From Spirochaetaceae bacterium (lineage in GTDB: Bacteria; Spirochaetota; Spirochaetia; SZUA-6; Bin103), in NCBI GenBank assembly GCA_028821475.1, contig JAPPGB010000030.1, positions 1-64,000 of the forward strand: a stretch of 64,000 nucleotides of DNA, in the 5' to 3' direction. The notes beneath the pieces were generated by a model that made no database searches, was not told the origin of the DNA, and saw only the letters and a list, made by a program, of their open reading frames with translations. This document shows, piece after piece, positions 36,174 to 50,280 of this stretch. Position 1 is the first letter of the stretch. Every line of letters starts with the position of its first letter. Made by a program: the position numbers and the translations under genes.

Positions 36174-36488
36174 TCACAGTGACGCCAACCGATCGAAGGT
36201 GTCAGGGTACTTGCGGGCCATCAATATGAGCGCCGCGGCGGCCGCCGGCGGGCTGGACTTGCCCTGCTCCCAGCCCTCGACGGTACGTACCGGCACGCGG
36301 AGCAGACCGGCGAACACCGCCCTCGACACGTCGATCTCCTGGCGAATCCCCTTGATCTGTTCGGCCGTGAGTCCGGGCAGCGGCGCGGCCTCGACGCGGG
36401 TCGTCCGCAGAGTGCGCGTGCCCGCTCGGTACTCCTGAACCTCGCGGAGCCCTTTGAGGACTTCCGCGGCGATATCCCGTTCAGCCAT
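36174..36488 (-). CDS. HTH antitoxin, HigA-like
   Basis: A 104-residue XRE/HigA2-like protein. LTAEQIKGIRQEIDVSRAVFAGLLRVPVRTVEGWEQG is the helix-turn-helix, and DTFDRLASL is the usual family ending. It overlaps the 3' end of a broken HigB-like toxin gene by 8 bp. With the toxin dead it may persist as an autorepressor. Confidence 0.82.
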   Translation of the reverse strand: MAERDIAAEVLKGLREVQEYRAGTRTLRTTRVEAAPLPGLTAEQIKGIRQEIDVSRAVFAGLLRVPVRTVEGWEQGKSSPPAAAAALILMARKYPDTFDRLASL

Positions 36489-36690
36489 GCTTGATCTCCT
36501 CGACGACCTTGCGCCACGCGGCCCGTTCGGCCGGCGAGAGGTCGTCCTTCACTCCCTTGCCGTACAGAGTGAGCAGATAGATATGGTCGTCGGCAACGAG
36601 CCAATGGTAGATGACCTACCCTCGCGTTGGCCAGCCGCCGGGCCGCCGAACTCGCCGGATGTTGCCGCCGAAGCCCTCGCGGCTTAGTAT
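36481..36690 (-). pseudogene. HigB/RelE-type toxin remnant with in-frame stop
   Basis: In frame before HigA the minus strand encodes GFGGNIRRVRRPGGWPTREG, a TAG, then VIYHWLVADDHIYLLTLYGK and DDLSPAERAAWRKVVEEIKHG. The second part is a typical HigB/RelE C-terminus. The TAG interrupts the middle, and no N-terminus is recognisable upstream. It is therefore a dead toxin beside a live antitoxin gene. Confidence 0.65.
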
Positions 36691-36725
36691 TGGCCTTGAT
36701 GGCGGATCCTGGGAGAAGCGGCGCG

Positions 36726-36836
36726 ATGCGTCGAATTGTCGCGAATCCGGAGATCCTTGGCGGCAAGCCAATCCTGGAGGGCACCCGGCTCAGAGTCGAC
36801 CACATTCTCGGCCTGTCTGCTCACCGCATCTATTAG
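36726..36836 (+). pseudogene. DUF433 antitoxin fragment
   Basis: MRRIVANPEILGGKPILEGTR and VDHILGLSA match the N-terminal half of DUF433 proteins, which are short antitoxin-like DNA-binding proteins. The frame ends after 36 residues (AHRIY) exactly where base composition becomes AT-rich. The C-terminal half is not found after the AT-rich segment. Confidence 0.6.
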
Positions 36837-36865
36837 AAATCCTCTTCGTTGAAAGGAATTTGCTA

Positions 36866-37612
36866 GTGGACTCCATTCTAGTTTTCGTTGGCATCTTGGC
36901 ATTTGCTAGCCTAGTTTTTGTATTCACTCATCTTCGGCCATTGAGTGATCAGGAGAAACGACAGTTAGCAGAAAAAAGGCGAAGAAAGAATATTCAAGGC
37001 TACTTTTCATTCTCCACCACAGAACTTCCTGTAAATAGCGAATTCAAGAAGCGAATGAGTCCGAGTGGAAGATTCTATAGAGTGGATGAAAGCCTCCATC
37101 GTTTTCCATCAGTTGCAGCAGCACTGTTGAAATACAAGAAACACGAATGGATTATTGTCGCGTTCGAGAAAAAACAGAACGTCAACATGATCTGGTTGAA
37201 TAAGGGGTTCGACAGGAGCCAAGTATCCCTGAATATACCAATTGGAGAAATCGCCGATATTGCGAAACGAGGCGATTATACGTCCGTACTATTCTTTCAT
37301 AATCACCCTAATTCAGATCCGTACTACTACGATCTTAGTCGGCCAAGTAATCAAGACCTATATTCAGCTAACAGATTATCTAGTACCCTTAATGTACATG
37401 GGATAAACTCGATTGAGTTTGTTTGCGAAAGAGGCGCTCATTATGGATACTATGCTTCTTGCGCTGATGCTTTCTTCCCACTCTCACACTTCGTTGTGAC
37501 CATAGATCGGGTGAATGGTTCATCCAAACTTACGAATTTGTCGTTGCACGTTCAGCGGGTGTTCTACCGGCAAGCCGAACCTCTTCAGAAAAGACGGCGT
37601 CGGCATCTGTAG
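36866..37612 (+). CDS. Membrane-anchored JAB/JAMM metalloprotease-like protein
   Basis: A 248-residue protein with one N-terminal TM helix (about 3-20, SILVFVGILAFASLVFVF), a Lys/Arg-rich stretch (30-42) and a soluble domain. HNHP (His145/His147) followed by SNQD (Ser161/Asp164) matches the RadC/JAB zinc motif HxHP...SxxD with a longer loop. Codon use is strikingly AT-rich compared with all neighbours, so it is probably a recent acquisition. The start is a GTG with AAAGGAA upstream. Its neighbours on both sides are truncated TA genes. JAMM proteins are isopeptidases or DNA-repair-associated factors; a defence role is possible but unproven. Confidence 0.6.
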   Translation: MDSILVFVGILAFASLVFVFTHLRPLSDQEKRQLAEKRRRKNIQGYFSFSTTELPVNSEFKKRMSPSGRFYRVDESLHRFPSVAAALLKYKKHEWIIVAFEKKQNVNMIWLNKGFDRSQVSLNIPIGEIADIAKRGDYTSVLFFHNHPNSDPYYYDLSRPSNQDLYSANRLSSTLNVHGINSIEFVCERGAHYGYYASCADAFFPLSHFVVTIDRVNGSSKLTNLSLHVQRVFYRQAEPLQKRRRRHL

Positions 37613-37641
37613 CGTCGGCACTACCTTCGCACGCAGTCATC

Positions 37642-37965
37642 CTACCACGTCTGCGATGCTGCGCCCCAGGCGCCTATTCCTGAACCACCGAAGTAAGTTC
37701 GCCCTGGTTCCAGTGCACTATCGTTTACTACTACTCCGAAATTTGAGCTCCCGATCGACGAGTCACGCAGATCGGCTGGCGCTACGCAGAAATCTGCGTC
37801 AGTCGTATACGGGGCGGAAGCAACGAAGTCCGCATCGCCAGCGTGCAGATAGACGGCCTGAGCGCCGACAAGCACAACTGCTTCGCGCTGTTCGGCCAGC
37901 GCCTCGGCAGCATCGAGCAGCGCGGCCCGGGCGCGCACGTAGAGTGGGTCAGGATCGCCAGACAT
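37642..37965 (-). pseudogene. AbiEii-like nucleotidyltransferase, C-terminally truncated
   Basis: The N-terminal 65 residues read as a nucleotidyltransferase: VVLVGAQAVYLHAGDAD and YTTDADFCVAPADLRD, the GxQA...D-x-D pattern of AbiEii/AbiGii toxins. After SSIGS the sequence is unrelated and less GC-rich and stops at 107 residues; full-length relatives are much longer. The start overlaps the end of the upstream HTH gene by 17 bp, which fits an AbiEi-AbiEii operon. The truncation coincides with the edge of the AT-rich island. Confidence 0.65.
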
Positions 37966-39028
37966 GTTGGTTCCTCGCCATCCACTCGATTATGTGTTCA
38001 CCCTGCGACGGTTCCCGCCCTGGCCCCGTCAAGAGGTCCGCGGCGAGATGGCTGGGAGCGACACAGCGAAGGCCGTCGCGGCAGAGCGCCCGATCAAACA
38101 CGACAGGGTCGAGAGGCTCTAGAATCATCACGTTGGCTCCGGCTTCGCTTCTTCGGAGATCCAGATGGTCGATGAACTCGATCGCGTCAGTCACGTAGAT
38201 GGCAGCGATTCGTGCGGGCGCGATGGGATCGAACCGCTGGGCAGCGAATGCGCCGGTGGCGACATACGCGAGCTTGGTCACGAGGAGTTTTTTCTCAAGC
38301 GCCGGCAGTCCCCTCGGCTCGAGAGCCATTGTGCACGTGTTCGAATCCGTTTGGTCATAATCTTGAGTCCACCGCCGAACAACGCCCTGCCAGTCGACCG
38401 CGGATACTGCACCCCGAATACGGTCCACGATGGCATCCCGTTCAAGCAACTCCAACACGCGCGACAACGTCGGAGCCGATACACTGGTAGACTGCGCCAG
38501 TTCTCGGACGCCGTACGGGGGGAACCTGTCGACGATGGCCCTCACGGCCCGCGCGGCACCGCGGCCGCGCAGAGACTGGAGCTTGTGATCCCTCGGCCAG
38601 GGATCATGATCCACGCCGTCGGAAGAAATGAATAAGCCCGGCATAGGGGCTTCGATGTGAACACTTCCCGTAGTGTCGATATAACCGATGTCGTGGTCAC
38701 GTAGAAGGACACGGGTGCGCGGGGAGAGGTAGGAGGCCGCTACTACAGGGACCCCAGCCGGCAACATCCTGTCCGTGATCGCGGAGAGCTGCGCTACCAC
38801 CTGGAGGACGCCGCGTGGCTCCAGTGTTCGTTTGACCTTGATGGCAAGCACCGCGGTCTCTACTGCGGGTGACACGAGCTCCGCCAGCAGGTCTACTTTG
38901 TATCGACCGGCCGACACTTCGGGCCGGACGTGAAGCGACCAACCGGGCGGCAGTCGTTTCGCGAGAGCGCGCTCCACGTGATGCGCCACCTGTGTCCCAG
39001 TCGGTGCCTGTTTGTCTACGTGAGGCAA
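37949..39028 (-). CDS. AbiEi-like winged-helix antitoxin/regulator
   Basis: About 359 residues. The N-terminal third resembles a restriction-like or sensor domain (YKVDLLAELVSPAVETAVLAIKVKRT). The centre has a winged helix (VRELAQSTSVSAPTLSRVLELLERDAIV). The C-terminal part (YVTDAIEFIDHLDLRRSEAGANVMILEP) resembles AbiEi-like C-terminal domains. A TTG with AAGGAG upstream is chosen as start; another in-frame TTG at 39049 would leave almost no leader. It precedes a truncated nucleotidyltransferase. The promoter at 39062-39090 has a palindrome in its spacer, consistent with autorepression. Confidence 0.6.
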   Translation of the reverse strand: MPHVDKQAPTGTQVAHHVERALAKRLPPGWSLHVRPEVSAGRYKVDLLAELVSPAVETAVLAIKVKRTLEPRGVLQVVAQLSAITDRMLPAGVPVVAASYLSPRTRVLLRDHDIGYIDTTGSVHIEAPMPGLFISSDGVDHDPWPRDHKLQSLRGRGAARAVRAIVDRFPPYGVRELAQSTSVSAPTLSRVLELLERDAIVDRIRGAVSAVDWQGVVRRWTQDYDQTDSNTCTMALEPRGLPALEKKLLVTKLAYVATGAFAAQRFDPIAPARIAAIYVTDAIEFIDHLDLRRSEAGANVMILEPLDPVVFDRALCRDGLRCVAPSHLAADLLTGPGREPSQGEHIIEWMARNQHVWRS

Positions 39029-39061
39029 GAGGTCTCCTTCGTTACCCAAACTGTTTCACCA

Positions 39062-47253: not shown

Positions 47254-48255
47254 TCATTCGTAGCGAATCCGCGGGTCCAGCGCCGCGTACAGCAGATCGG
47301 TCAGGAGATTGACCAAGACCACGACCGTGGCGAAGAACAGGTTCAGCCCCGAGACGACCGGGTAGTCTCTGTCCGTGAGCGTATCCAGCATCAGCCGTCC
47401 CAGCCCCGGCAGGTTGAAGATGTTCTCGATGATCACCGAGCCGCCCACCAGAATCGGGATCTGCATGCCCACCAGCGTCACCACCGGGATGATCGCGTTC
47501 TTGACCGCGTGGCGCAGGATCACCGACCGCTCCAGCAGCCCCTTGGACCAGGCGGTCCTGATGTAGTCCTGGCGCAGCACCTCCAGCATCATGGTGCGGG
47601 TCATGCGCATCGTGCTGGCCGCCAGGTAGGTGCCGAGGATCAGGCTGGGAATCAGGAACATGCCGAGGTTGCCCAGTGGGTCTTCGGAGAATGAAACAAA
47701 CTCCATCGGCGGCGCCCACGCCCACCAGATGGCCGGGTAGATCATCACCATCGTTCCCAGCCAGAAGTTGGGCGTGGCCAGCCCCATGATGGCGACCGAC
47801 CGTCCCACGTAGTCGGCAGCGGTGTACTGGCGCACCGCCGAGTAGATGCCCACCGGCAGCGCGATGACCAGGCCAATGAGGATCGCCAGCACCCCGAGCT
47901 CGAAGGTTACGGGCAGTCTATCCAGGATCCTTTCCCCTATCGCGTAACCGCCGCCAACCAGTGAGTGGCCAAGGTTGCCCTGGAGGAGACCCCTGAAGCG
48001 GGACTCACCGGTAACCCAGTCAGGGGTCGGCAACACTCCTATCCAGCGTCCATACTGCACGTACACAGGCTGGTCTAATCCCAGCGCACGCTCAACAGCT
48101 TCACGGTCAAACGCGGCCATCGCATGGTCCAACCTGCTGGCCATTATGTCTATTACATCACCCGGGATGAAGCGGACCGACAGAAAGACCAGGACAGTCA
48201 ATATGAACAGGGTGGGGATGATCAGCAATACCCTCCTGATGATATAGGCTCTCAT
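47254..48255 (-). CDS. Peptide ABC transporter permease, OppB type
   Basis: A 333-residue permease. MRAYIIRRVLLIIPTLFILTV begins TM1 with the usual OppB N-terminus. PVYVQYGRWIG, LATPNFWLGTMVMIYPAIWW, the EAA loop (RTAWSKGLLERSVILRHAVKNA) and GGSVIIENIFNLPGLGRLM follow. It ends with LDPRIRYE. Separated from the SBP gene by a 225-bp gap holding a 10-bp-stem hairpin; followed by oppC after 13 bp. Confidence 0.92.
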   Translation of the reverse strand: MRAYIIRRVLLIIPTLFILTVLVFLSVRFIPGDVIDIMASRLDHAMAAFDREAVERALGLDQPVYVQYGRWIGVLPTPDWVTGESRFRGLLQGNLGHSLVGGGYAIGERILDRLPVTFELGVLAILIGLVIALPVGIYSAVRQYTAADYVGRSVAIMGLATPNFWLGTMVMIYPAIWWAWAPPMEFVSFSEDPLGNLGMFLIPSLILGTYLAASTMRMTRTMMLEVLRQDYIRTAWSKGLLERSVILRHAVKNAIIPVVTLVGMQIPILVGGSVIIENIFNLPGLGRLMLDTLTDRDYPVVSGLNLFFATVVVLVNLLTDLLYAALDPRIRYE

Positions 48256-48330
48256 GTCATATACCTCGGCATTGGTTTAATAGTGAATCTCTAGCCTCCC
48301 TGTATGTATCGGCGGTTTCTTATATTGAAA

Positions 48331-48361
48331 GTGGGATGGCAGACCGGTGCCGCCATCCCAC
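48331..48361 (-). terminator. Strong hairpin between binding protein and oppB
   Basis: Perfect 10-bp stem GTGGGATGGC / GCCATCCCAC with an 11-nt loop. On the minus strand it is followed by TTTCAATAT, so it could act as a weak intrinsic terminator that limits oppBC expression relative to the binding protein. It lies 120 bases after the SBP stop. Confidence 0.6.
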
Positions 48362-48480
48362 CGTTTACCAGTTGCTACCCGCCTGGCTGCATCAGTTCCG
48401 CCCCGCTCACCTCCTACGCAGTATGGGCTCGCCACGGGCGGGCTGCGGGACCGGAAATCAGTTGTACTACGATGCGATTA

Positions 48481-50280
48481 CTAAAACCCCATTTCTTTCT
48501 TCAGATCCTGGTCGATCCAAAAGCGGGCGAAGATCGTATAATCGTTCCAGTTGGCCATGTTGGCTTCACCGTTCCAACCTTTCACCCACGGATGGGCGAA
48601 CTGAAACATTGGCGCTTTAGGGCCCATTACATTAAACTGATTCCGTACTACAAACATGTCGTAGTCTTTGGCGAACTTCTGCTGCTCCTCAATGCTGGTA
48701 GCGGCGAAAAAGCCATCATGGAGAGCCTCCAATTCCGGCGAACCTCCGCCGACCGTTTCCAGCGTTAAAGCCTTCGCAGCCCAGCTATACCAGCCCATGA
48801 CTGCGGCCGGGGTAAGACTCGCGTTCACGGCCCCGGTGGCCATCTCATACGAGTGATCTGATACAAGGGCTTGCCAAGTCGGACTGTCATATGGAGTAAT
48901 CGCTACACTAACGCCAATTTCATCCCAGTAGCCGGCAAGTGCTTCTATAATGCCTATATCAAAAATGCCACGGAGAACATAGGTGGTCTCAAATCGTACG
49001 CCGTCCGCACCGCGCGGATATCCAGCCGCATCAAGCAATGCTTCCGCCGCTTCCGGGTCATACCTATAGGTTTTCTTGACCTCTTCGGGCCACTCTTCAA
49101 ACGGGACGTAAAATCCCTTGAGGTTATCTCCGATGACTCCCGTTGGTGTTGGCTTCGCAAGACCGCTATAGTAAGTTTCGTTGATCGTCTCCAGGTCCAC
49201 TGCCATCTGCATGGCCTGGCGTACCCTGATGTCGTCAAAAGGCGGGTTGCGCGTGTTCATGGAAGCAGAGCTATTATTGTAAATCCAAAAAGGGCCCACC
49301 TGGAGTTCTGGATTGGTCCGCTGGAGGCTCCGTACCGTATCGATGGATCCCACGGACATGCCCCCGGAAGTATGTACCATGTCAATGCTGGCCGAGCGTA
49401 GGGCGGCGAGCAGTGTCGCTTCGTCTCCCATATACAGATGCCTTACTTCGTCAACATAGGGCAAGCGGTTCTCCGGGTACTTTGGGTCGTGGCCCCAGTA
49501 GTCAGGATTCTTGATATAGGTCCTGGAGACGCCTTCGACCAAGTCAGTCAGCATAAAGGGCCCGGTGCCGACCATGTTCCGCCAATCCTTGTAGTCGCCG
49601 TGTTGTTCGATTACCTCGGGGGGCAAAATGAAAGCCATGGTTCCGGTTGTAAAAGAGGGCACTGCATCGAGCGATGGCTGCTCCATCTTGACGACAACCG
49701 TCGATTTGTCGGTGGCCGTTATCGATTCGACTGGCATGCGGAATATGTCGAACTGCTGTAAAGGAACTCCCTCCTTGCCCCAACCCTTAATGCGCCGAAA
49801 GTTATACTCGACATCGCCGGCAGTCAGCTCCCGACCGTTCATCGGTGCCTTATTGTGCCAGTGAACGCCCTTGCGGATGTGGAAGACGATAGTTAGTGGG
49901 TCGGGTGTTGCCCAGCTTTCCACCAAGTTCCCTGTCATGACGCTAAAAGGGTAGTAATAAGAACTGAAATCAAATTCGTCCCTATCTATTGCCCAGTTCG
50001 CGTAGGCGAGTTTCTCATTAACGCCACTGATCCACCATGTCGGGCGTCCACCGTCATAAAAGGGGTCAGTGGGAGCAATGTCTGGAAGCTTGTAGGGCAG
50101 GGTCAGTGTTCCGCCATAGCTCGGCGCCACCACCTGGTTTCCGGTGGTGGGGTCGGTCACCATCTCCTTCCCGGCGGCGGCTGCCGGCGCCTCTTCGCTG
50201 GCAGCGGCCCAGAGGCCGGACGCGGCCAGACCGAGACCGATCAGGACCGCCAGGATCTTTCGCAAGATTGCGTATTGCAT
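48481..50280 (-). CDS. Peptide ABC transporter substrate-binding protein
   Basis: A 599-residue SBP_bac_5 protein. Signal peptide MQYAILRKILAVLIGLGLAASG with AAA cleavage; then an Ala/Glu linker, the DPTTGN tag and APSYGGTLTL. Landmarks: VESWATPDPLTIVFHIRKGVHW, FDDIRVRQAMQMAVD, FYVPFEEWPEEVKKTYRYD, AGYPRGADG. It ends KKEMGF. The ATG has AGGAGG eight bases upstream. It lacks a lipobox Cys, so it is likely periplasmic and soluble. First gene of the intact operon with OppB and OppC; the leader region upstream is conserved with three other binding-protein genes. Confidence 0.92.
   Translation of the reverse strand: MQYAILRKILAVLIGLGLAASGLWAAASEEAPAAAAGKEMVTDPTTGNQVVAPSYGGTLTLPYKLPDIAPTDPFYDGGRPTWWISGVNEKLAYANWAIDRDEFDFSSYYYPFSVMTGNLVESWATPDPLTIVFHIRKGVHWHNKAPMNGRELTAGDVEYNFRRIKGWGKEGVPLQQFDIFRMPVESITATDKSTVVVKMEQPSLDAVPSFTTGTMAFILPPEVIEQHGDYKDWRNMVGTGPFMLTDLVEGVSRTYIKNPDYWGHDPKYPENRLPYVDEVRHLYMGDEATLLAALRSASIDMVHTSGGMSVGSIDTVRSLQRTNPELQVGPFWIYNNSSASMNTRNPPFDDIRVRQAMQMAVDLETINETYYSGLAKPTPTGVIGDNLKGFYVPFEEWPEEVKKTYRYDPEAAEALLDAAGYPRGADGVRFETTYVLRGIFDIGIIEALAGYWDEIGVSVAITPYDSPTWQALVSDHSYEMATGAVNASLTPAAVMGWYSWAAKALTLETVGGGSPELEALHDGFFAATSIEEQQKFAKDYDMFVVRNQFNVMGPKAPMFQFAHPWVKGWNGEANMANWNDYTIFARFWIDQDLKKEMGF

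Follow-up and report, generated by a model that had tools for sequence, protein, structure and literature searches.

The window, by which we mean the whole 64-kb stretch of DNA that was analysed, holds an AT-rich inserted stretch of about 41-43% GC in windowed counts (36830..37640, with a right edge that is diffuse to ~37770). The sole intact gene of this island lies on the plus strand at 36866..37612 (GTG start; TAG stop codon at 37610-37612) and encodes a membrane-anchored RadC-like JAMM protein of 248 aa, an assignment based on its intact frame, its RadC match in Pfam, an AlphaFold2 model and its homologues. The best start of the gene appears from the sequence to be the GTG at 36866, and a Shine-Dalgarno-like AAAGGA (36852..36857, plus strand) can be read 8 nt 5' of it. 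On the left the island is flanked by a truncated DUF433 gene (36726..36836, plus strand) and on the right by a short nucleotidyltransferase-like ORF on the minus strand (37642..37965), probably a truncated AbiEii-type gene. The partner gene of this nucleotidyltransferase remnant follows on the same strand at 37949..39049 and encodes an AbiEi-like/winged-helix protein of 366 aa, which has weak HTH matches and two distant paralogues in its own genome.

The truncation of the DUF433 gene is real: its match to Pfam PF04255 (E 1.9e-8) covers profile positions 1-29 of 56 only, and the island then begins. The right-flank ORF matched the NTP_transf_8 profile (PF12281) weakly and below threshold (E 0.13, profile positions 5-55 of 218), and relatives of it were found in 0 of 295 other genomes of the phylum. 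Thus, where a preliminary description of this DNA had placed the island between two truncated TA genes, the left one stands and the identity of the right one as a truncated AbiEii gene is plausible only. Decayed TA-type genes (HTH antitoxin-like, DUF433, the nucleotidyltransferase remnant and AbiEi-like) are clustered at 36174-39049 of the window, apparently an insertion hot spot.

The edges and origin of the island

The lowest GC content of any 500 nt in the window was 0.408, at 36901 (window mean 0.645, sd 0.049). Measured over 200 nt, GC content fell at the left edge from 0.65 (36600-36799) to 0.43 (36800-36999), stayed at 0.405-0.425 inside the island up to ~37399, and then climbed through 0.48, 0.55, 0.57 and 0.59 to reach 0.635 again by 37800-37999. 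On the left the change is abrupt and falls within the DUF433 gene, as had been described (36826), whereas the second sharp change described at about 37750 proved to be a gradual ramp between 37400 and 37800, with no step. A second, milder dip (0.51-0.55 per 500 nt) is seen at 47900-50100 of the window.

Only short chance matches were found as repeats at the island ends, and a search of Rfam gave one chance match far below gathering, so that an RNA element was rejected for the island. The empty site that the preliminary description had suggested looking for in related strains was not found by a DNA search of 60 relatives, in which the sole match comprised 38 bases in one relative; nor was a second copy of the right-hand junction DNA found in the island's own genome. 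The view that the island is foreign, horizontally acquired DNA with one gene is supported. We also considered that a foreign 0.8-kb fragment had been misjoined into the contig by an assembly or binning artefact, with which the sharp left composition edge and the broken gene beside it would agree; the genome is a MAG of 183 contigs, and no second strain with the junction was found. However, a lone 0.8-kb foreign insert within a 90-kb contig would be an unusual assembler error, and a low-GC gene of this family in higher-GC DNA recurs independently at two other loci (0.42 vs 0.58 at L007 and 0.42 vs 0.57 at L010). We consider such a chimera very improbable, and treat the gene below as horizontally acquired.

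A membrane-anchored JAMM protein related to RadC

The protein consists of a hydrophobic helix, a K/R-rich helix and a JAB domain, with residues 1-46 preceding the core. Both the hydrophobic N-terminal segment and the zinc motif noticed earlier (HNHP...SNQD) could be read in it. The N-terminal TM helix (about residues 2-21; 36869..36928, plus strand), predicted from hydropathy (residues 3-21) and as a helix by DSSP on the model (2-21), is followed by the K/R-rich segment; its best 19-residue hydropathy is 2.59, with 0 K/R before it and 8 in the next 30 residues. The membrane anchor is a trait of the family, since all 12 of the 12 full-length members have such a segment, again preceded by 0 K/R and followed by 6-8 K/R within 30 residues. 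By the positive-inside rule, the JAB domain of the family should face the cytosol.

The JAB/RadC-like core, as delimited by the match to Pfam PF04002, spans 37127..37417 on the plus strand, and on the same strand we located a putative JAMM site. This site would comprise E94 (37145..37147, in the motif LKYKKHEW), a putative catalytic Glu whose role is assigned by JAMM/RadC anatomy; H145-N146-H147 (37298..37306), the putative Zn-binding HxH; and S161-x-x-D164 (37346..37357), with a spacing of HNHP-x12-S-x2-D. The 13 rows of the family alignment show no variation at H145, H147, S161 or D164, and E94 is invariant in every member long enough to cover it (~11-12 sequences aligned). Further motifs invariant in the 13 rows are N112-K113-G114, HNHPN and C187-E-R-G (187-190). 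Judged from these residues, the JAMM ligand set (Glu + HxHP + x(n) + S-x-x-D) appears complete in the family.

The AlphaFold2 model, built from an alignment of 11 sequences, had a pLDDT of 87.6 and a pTM of 0.82. Its best solved match in Foldseek was RadC (2qlc, E 9.4e-5), and VIA-align gave Z scores of 11.5 for RadC, 10.1 for BubCD and 8.4 for PfJAMM1, with lower scores for AMSH, BRCC36 and Cap3 (7.0). A JAB/MPN fold, and with it membership of the JAMM/MPN+ superfamily, is thus confidently predicted, in agreement with the JAMM assignment of the preliminary description. The match came via fold comparison only: neither the protein nor its profile found anything significant when searched by sequence against the PDB.

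RadC was the only relevant Pfam family for the window protein (E 3.9e-4), which scored 20.8 bits against a cut-off of 22.1, or 22.4 with neighbouring matches; 10 of 11 family members matched PF04002, weakly. The protein is nevertheless a relative of RadC and not a RadC equivalent, because its score of 21.6 bits against the NCBIfam RadC model (PRK00024) is far below the cut-off of 180 and the host genome also encodes a canonical RadC (127 bits). The family shares with RadC (UPF0758/PF04002; 2qlc) the JAB fold, for which RadC is the closest solved structure, and the HNHP...S..D motif, but it has a TM helix and K/R-rich helix (residues 1-46) in place of the RadC N-terminal region, as well as its own invariant LKYKKHEW, NKG and CERG motifs. 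RadC-like proteins are widespread in bacteria, and we know of no established function for them.

Similar differences separate the family from other JAMM enzymes. The JAMM isopeptidases of Ubl systems, BubCD and CBASS Cap3, have a similar fold (Z 10.1 and 7.0), but the window family is membrane-anchored and lacks recognised E1/E2/Ubl neighbours, and identity is 11-12%. PfJAMM1 and archaeal Rpn11-like JAMM proteins likewise share the enzyme fold (Z 7.6-8.4), with only ~12-16% identity to the window protein; they are soluble and have no N-terminal membrane helix.

A rare family scattered over bacteria and archaea

No full relative was found in 97 related genomes, nor in 392 other genomes of the phylum, where the only match (in G214) was a fragment of 57 C-terminal residues with two stops that was not counted as a relative. 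With 0 of 97 relatives carrying the gene and a separate canonical RadC in the genome, the homologues are not housekeeping genes of this lineage. Scanned for relatives, 84,980 species genomes yielded 13 at 35-56% identity, a number that is a lower bound because the scan relies on exact 8-residue seeds. By MAG label these relatives span about 12 phyla, archaea included: the hosts are labelled Woesearchaeota, Cloacimonadota, Chloroflexota, Firmicutes, Methanofollis, Syntrophaceae, Verrucomicrobia, Armatimonadetes, Zixibacteria, Rhodothermales, a delta-proteobacterium and Planctomycetota. Single labels of MAG contigs may err, as for the 'Armatimonadetes' genome G461, which was drawn with the phylum of a Cloacimonadota genome, and the Woesearchaeota-labelled contig of L005 is only 3 kb; the labels could hardly be wrong in all relatives.

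The family tree shows two well-supported clades, within which the inner forks are mostly poorly resolved and hosts are not grouped by label. The members at L005 (Woesearchaeota label) and L008 (Cloacimonadota) share 82% DNA identity, with a dN of 0.13 and a dS of 0.59 (dN/dS ~0.22), and have therefore moved recently under purifying selection. That this is a rare mobile family of distantly related bacteria and archaea is well supported.

Integron cassettes carry the gene in at least two relatives

At L009 five attC form an array that ends in a tyrosine integrase, and the JAMM gene is the only gene between two of these long sites (5' end TAACAACAGGCTAAACGGC, 3' end GTTTAGCCAATAKGCGTTR); this copy of the JAMM gene has one in-frame stop. 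The attC sites at this locus (L009:5835-10089, in a Firmicutes-labelled MAG) are unusually long, at ~290-390 nt, and its cassettes are without known domains. At L011 an attC site is found 3' of the JAMM gene (0 of 100 shuffles were as good), similar sites recur down the array, and the genome encodes a full integron integrase IntI (414 bits vs a cut-off of 265). An attC-like site directly upstream of the gene at L008 is plausible, with 7 of 100 shuffles as good. Furthermore, L005, L007 and L008 have a leader of ~35 nt in common and are divergent beyond it, as cassettes would be. Carriage as integron cassette cargo is thus supported in at least two relatives, L009 and L011. In about 10 of the 13 relatives no convincing attC was found; a first scan with a strict attC pattern was too weak for single sites, and absence of attC in it is not proof. 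At L017, three tyrosine recombinase genes that lie next to one another interrupt the JAMM gene and look like a recombinase-trio element. On the same contig (L068:3310-7651) a Bro-N protein is encoded directly upstream of the split gene.

Near the window copy no attC-like site stood out from shuffles in a scan that can miss degraded sites. An integrase profile search of its genome found tyrosine recombinases only, all below the integron integrase cut-off; weak hits to TIGR02249 were disregarded as evidence of IntI, because control genomes also score. The window copy might be a passive passenger in decay, left unexpressed after a cassette gene ended up in a graveyard of TA genes, which would be compatible with any function of the family. 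The broken DUF433 gene beside it fits such decay, as do the failure to find a promoter-like site above chance for the gene in the window and a 15-residue C-terminal extension past the family end, which suggests that the original stop was lost. Against this, the frame, the RBS and all family-invariant residues of the window copy are intact, and we hold the passenger reading to be possible, if rather unlikely.

Neighbours and partner genes

The search for homologues and their neighbourhoods that had been proposed turned up several loci with defence-type genes next to the relatives: an AbiU2-HEPN gene at L008, a CAP12/Pycsar-type TIR and HerA at L016, a gene for a CARF-HTH protein at L013, a DUF262-type protein and an ImmA/IrrE-type M78 peptidase at L015, and a DUF1156-type methylase at L007. 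These neighbours may do no more than mirror a location in variable islands. The window neighbourhood contained no gene for E1, E2 or a ubiquitin-like protein, and none was recognised among the neighbours scanned at the homologue loci. By its neighbours the JAMM protein is not of the CBASS type, nor of Bub/Bil, in line with the earlier remark that its format is unlike that of CBASS-like JAB proteins.

In three Cloacimonadota loci (L013:4358-9025, L066:1746-4455 and L067:1422-4044, the latter two on two contigs of G557) the JAMM gene is the first of three in order on one strand, followed by genes for a GHKL/HisKA-like ATPase and a receiver-like protein. The ATPases of L013 and L066 are 68% identical over 265 aa. 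The third protein, of 340-348 aa and 47% identity, starts with MKILYVEDEL and is receiver-like by this N-terminus; the L066 protein has no Pfam match. The three genes might form a signalling or conflict system that has so far gone undescribed. Of the idea that the JAMM gene is a single-gene cargo, then, carriage as an integron cassette holds (alone between attC at L009, within an array at L011), but the gene is not always alone.

The operon also raises the alternative of a regulated signalling protease in the membrane, whose JAMM domain would deliver the output of a histidine-kinase-like/receiver-like stress pathway or regulate it, with lone copies using partners of the host. The gene order, including a GHKL-type ATPase with a HisKA-like motif, is kept in all three loci, and a gene for a CARF-HTH (RtcR-like) regulator lies directly upstream of the operon at L013. 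However, neither the window nor the surroundings of the other relatives showed such partners, and the L009 cassette holds the JAMM gene by itself; we regard a primary role in signalling as quite unlikely.

A proposed role in phage defence

We tentatively favour the reading that horizontal transfer brought in the island with a single gene for an enzyme that is tethered to the membrane and faces the cytosol, presumably a zinc (iso)peptidase by its motifs, and that acts in phage defence; we rate this as a serious possibility that falls short of probable. Fold and mobility are well supported, and the defence role is what we infer from cassette carriage and the defence-type neighbours. The family would be kept as compact defence cargo; upon infection the enzyme would act at the membrane's inner face, where its cleavage of a peptide or isopeptide bond would block phage development or arrest the cell. 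In some Cloacimonadota the enzyme would probably be gated by the histidine-kinase-like ATPase and receiver-like partner of its operon, while the window copy, sitting within decayed TA genes, would have lost its attC or never had one.

Passages of two papers describe integron cassettes of unknown function as rich in anti-phage genes (PMC12409362, PMC12444791), and according to one of them ~10% of all cassettes of one Vibrio chromosomal integron gave phage protection when expressed (PMC12409362). Like the anti-phage cassettes of Vibrio chromosomal and mobile integrons in these passages (PMC12409362), the present family is a single small gene, attC-bounded, of unknown function and with scattered hosts; it differs in that the window copy is without attC and that the anti-phage role of the family is a proposed one. 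The passages describe no anti-phage cassette of the JAMM or RadC-like kind, and PADLOC gave no match to the window protein at E<=1.

JAMM domains are already known, as are RadC relatives and defence cassettes; the present family, which combines a membrane anchor, cassette carriage and motifs of its own, was not found as a separate entry in Pfam, NCBIfam, PHROGs or PADLOC, and the literature searched contained no description of it. It could represent a single-gene anti-phage system not yet described, in which integron cassettes spread a RadC-like JAMM protease with a membrane anchor across phyla including archaea, and the protease is sometimes wired to a histidine-kinase-like/receiver-like pair, a stronger proposal that we see as somewhat doubtful. 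Were it true, a RadC-type protein would gain a defined biological role, and if the gene alone gave phage protection, this would be a minimal JAMM-based defence without ubiquitin-like conjugation. As a mobile single-gene cargo, the compact membrane-bound RadC-like enzyme is a small test object for the role of the domain.

The same enzyme might instead serve the mobile elements themselves as a selfish or accessory function, by processing element or host proteins, aiding establishment or countering host defence, in the manner of the RadC/JAB proteins that phages, ICEs and plasmids carry. Its closest viral structure matches are indeed phage RadC-like proteins, RadC-like JAB proteins occur on plasmids, and one relative lies on a provirus contig (L029, below). 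Yet true members were absent or nearly so from a phage collection (50,697 records) and a plasmid collection (72,556 records), and absent from IMG/VR apart from one contig end, and integron cassettes carry host-benefit cargo as a rule; we judge this alternative unlikely. A match to Pseudomonas phage pf16 gp200 was rejected as chance, since it covered residues 13-95 only, before the catalytic core, at E 0.03. The member at L029:1-270 lies at the extreme end of its provirus contig, which also has a tail-fibre-type gene, and is possibly prophage cargo or part of the host side of the boundary.
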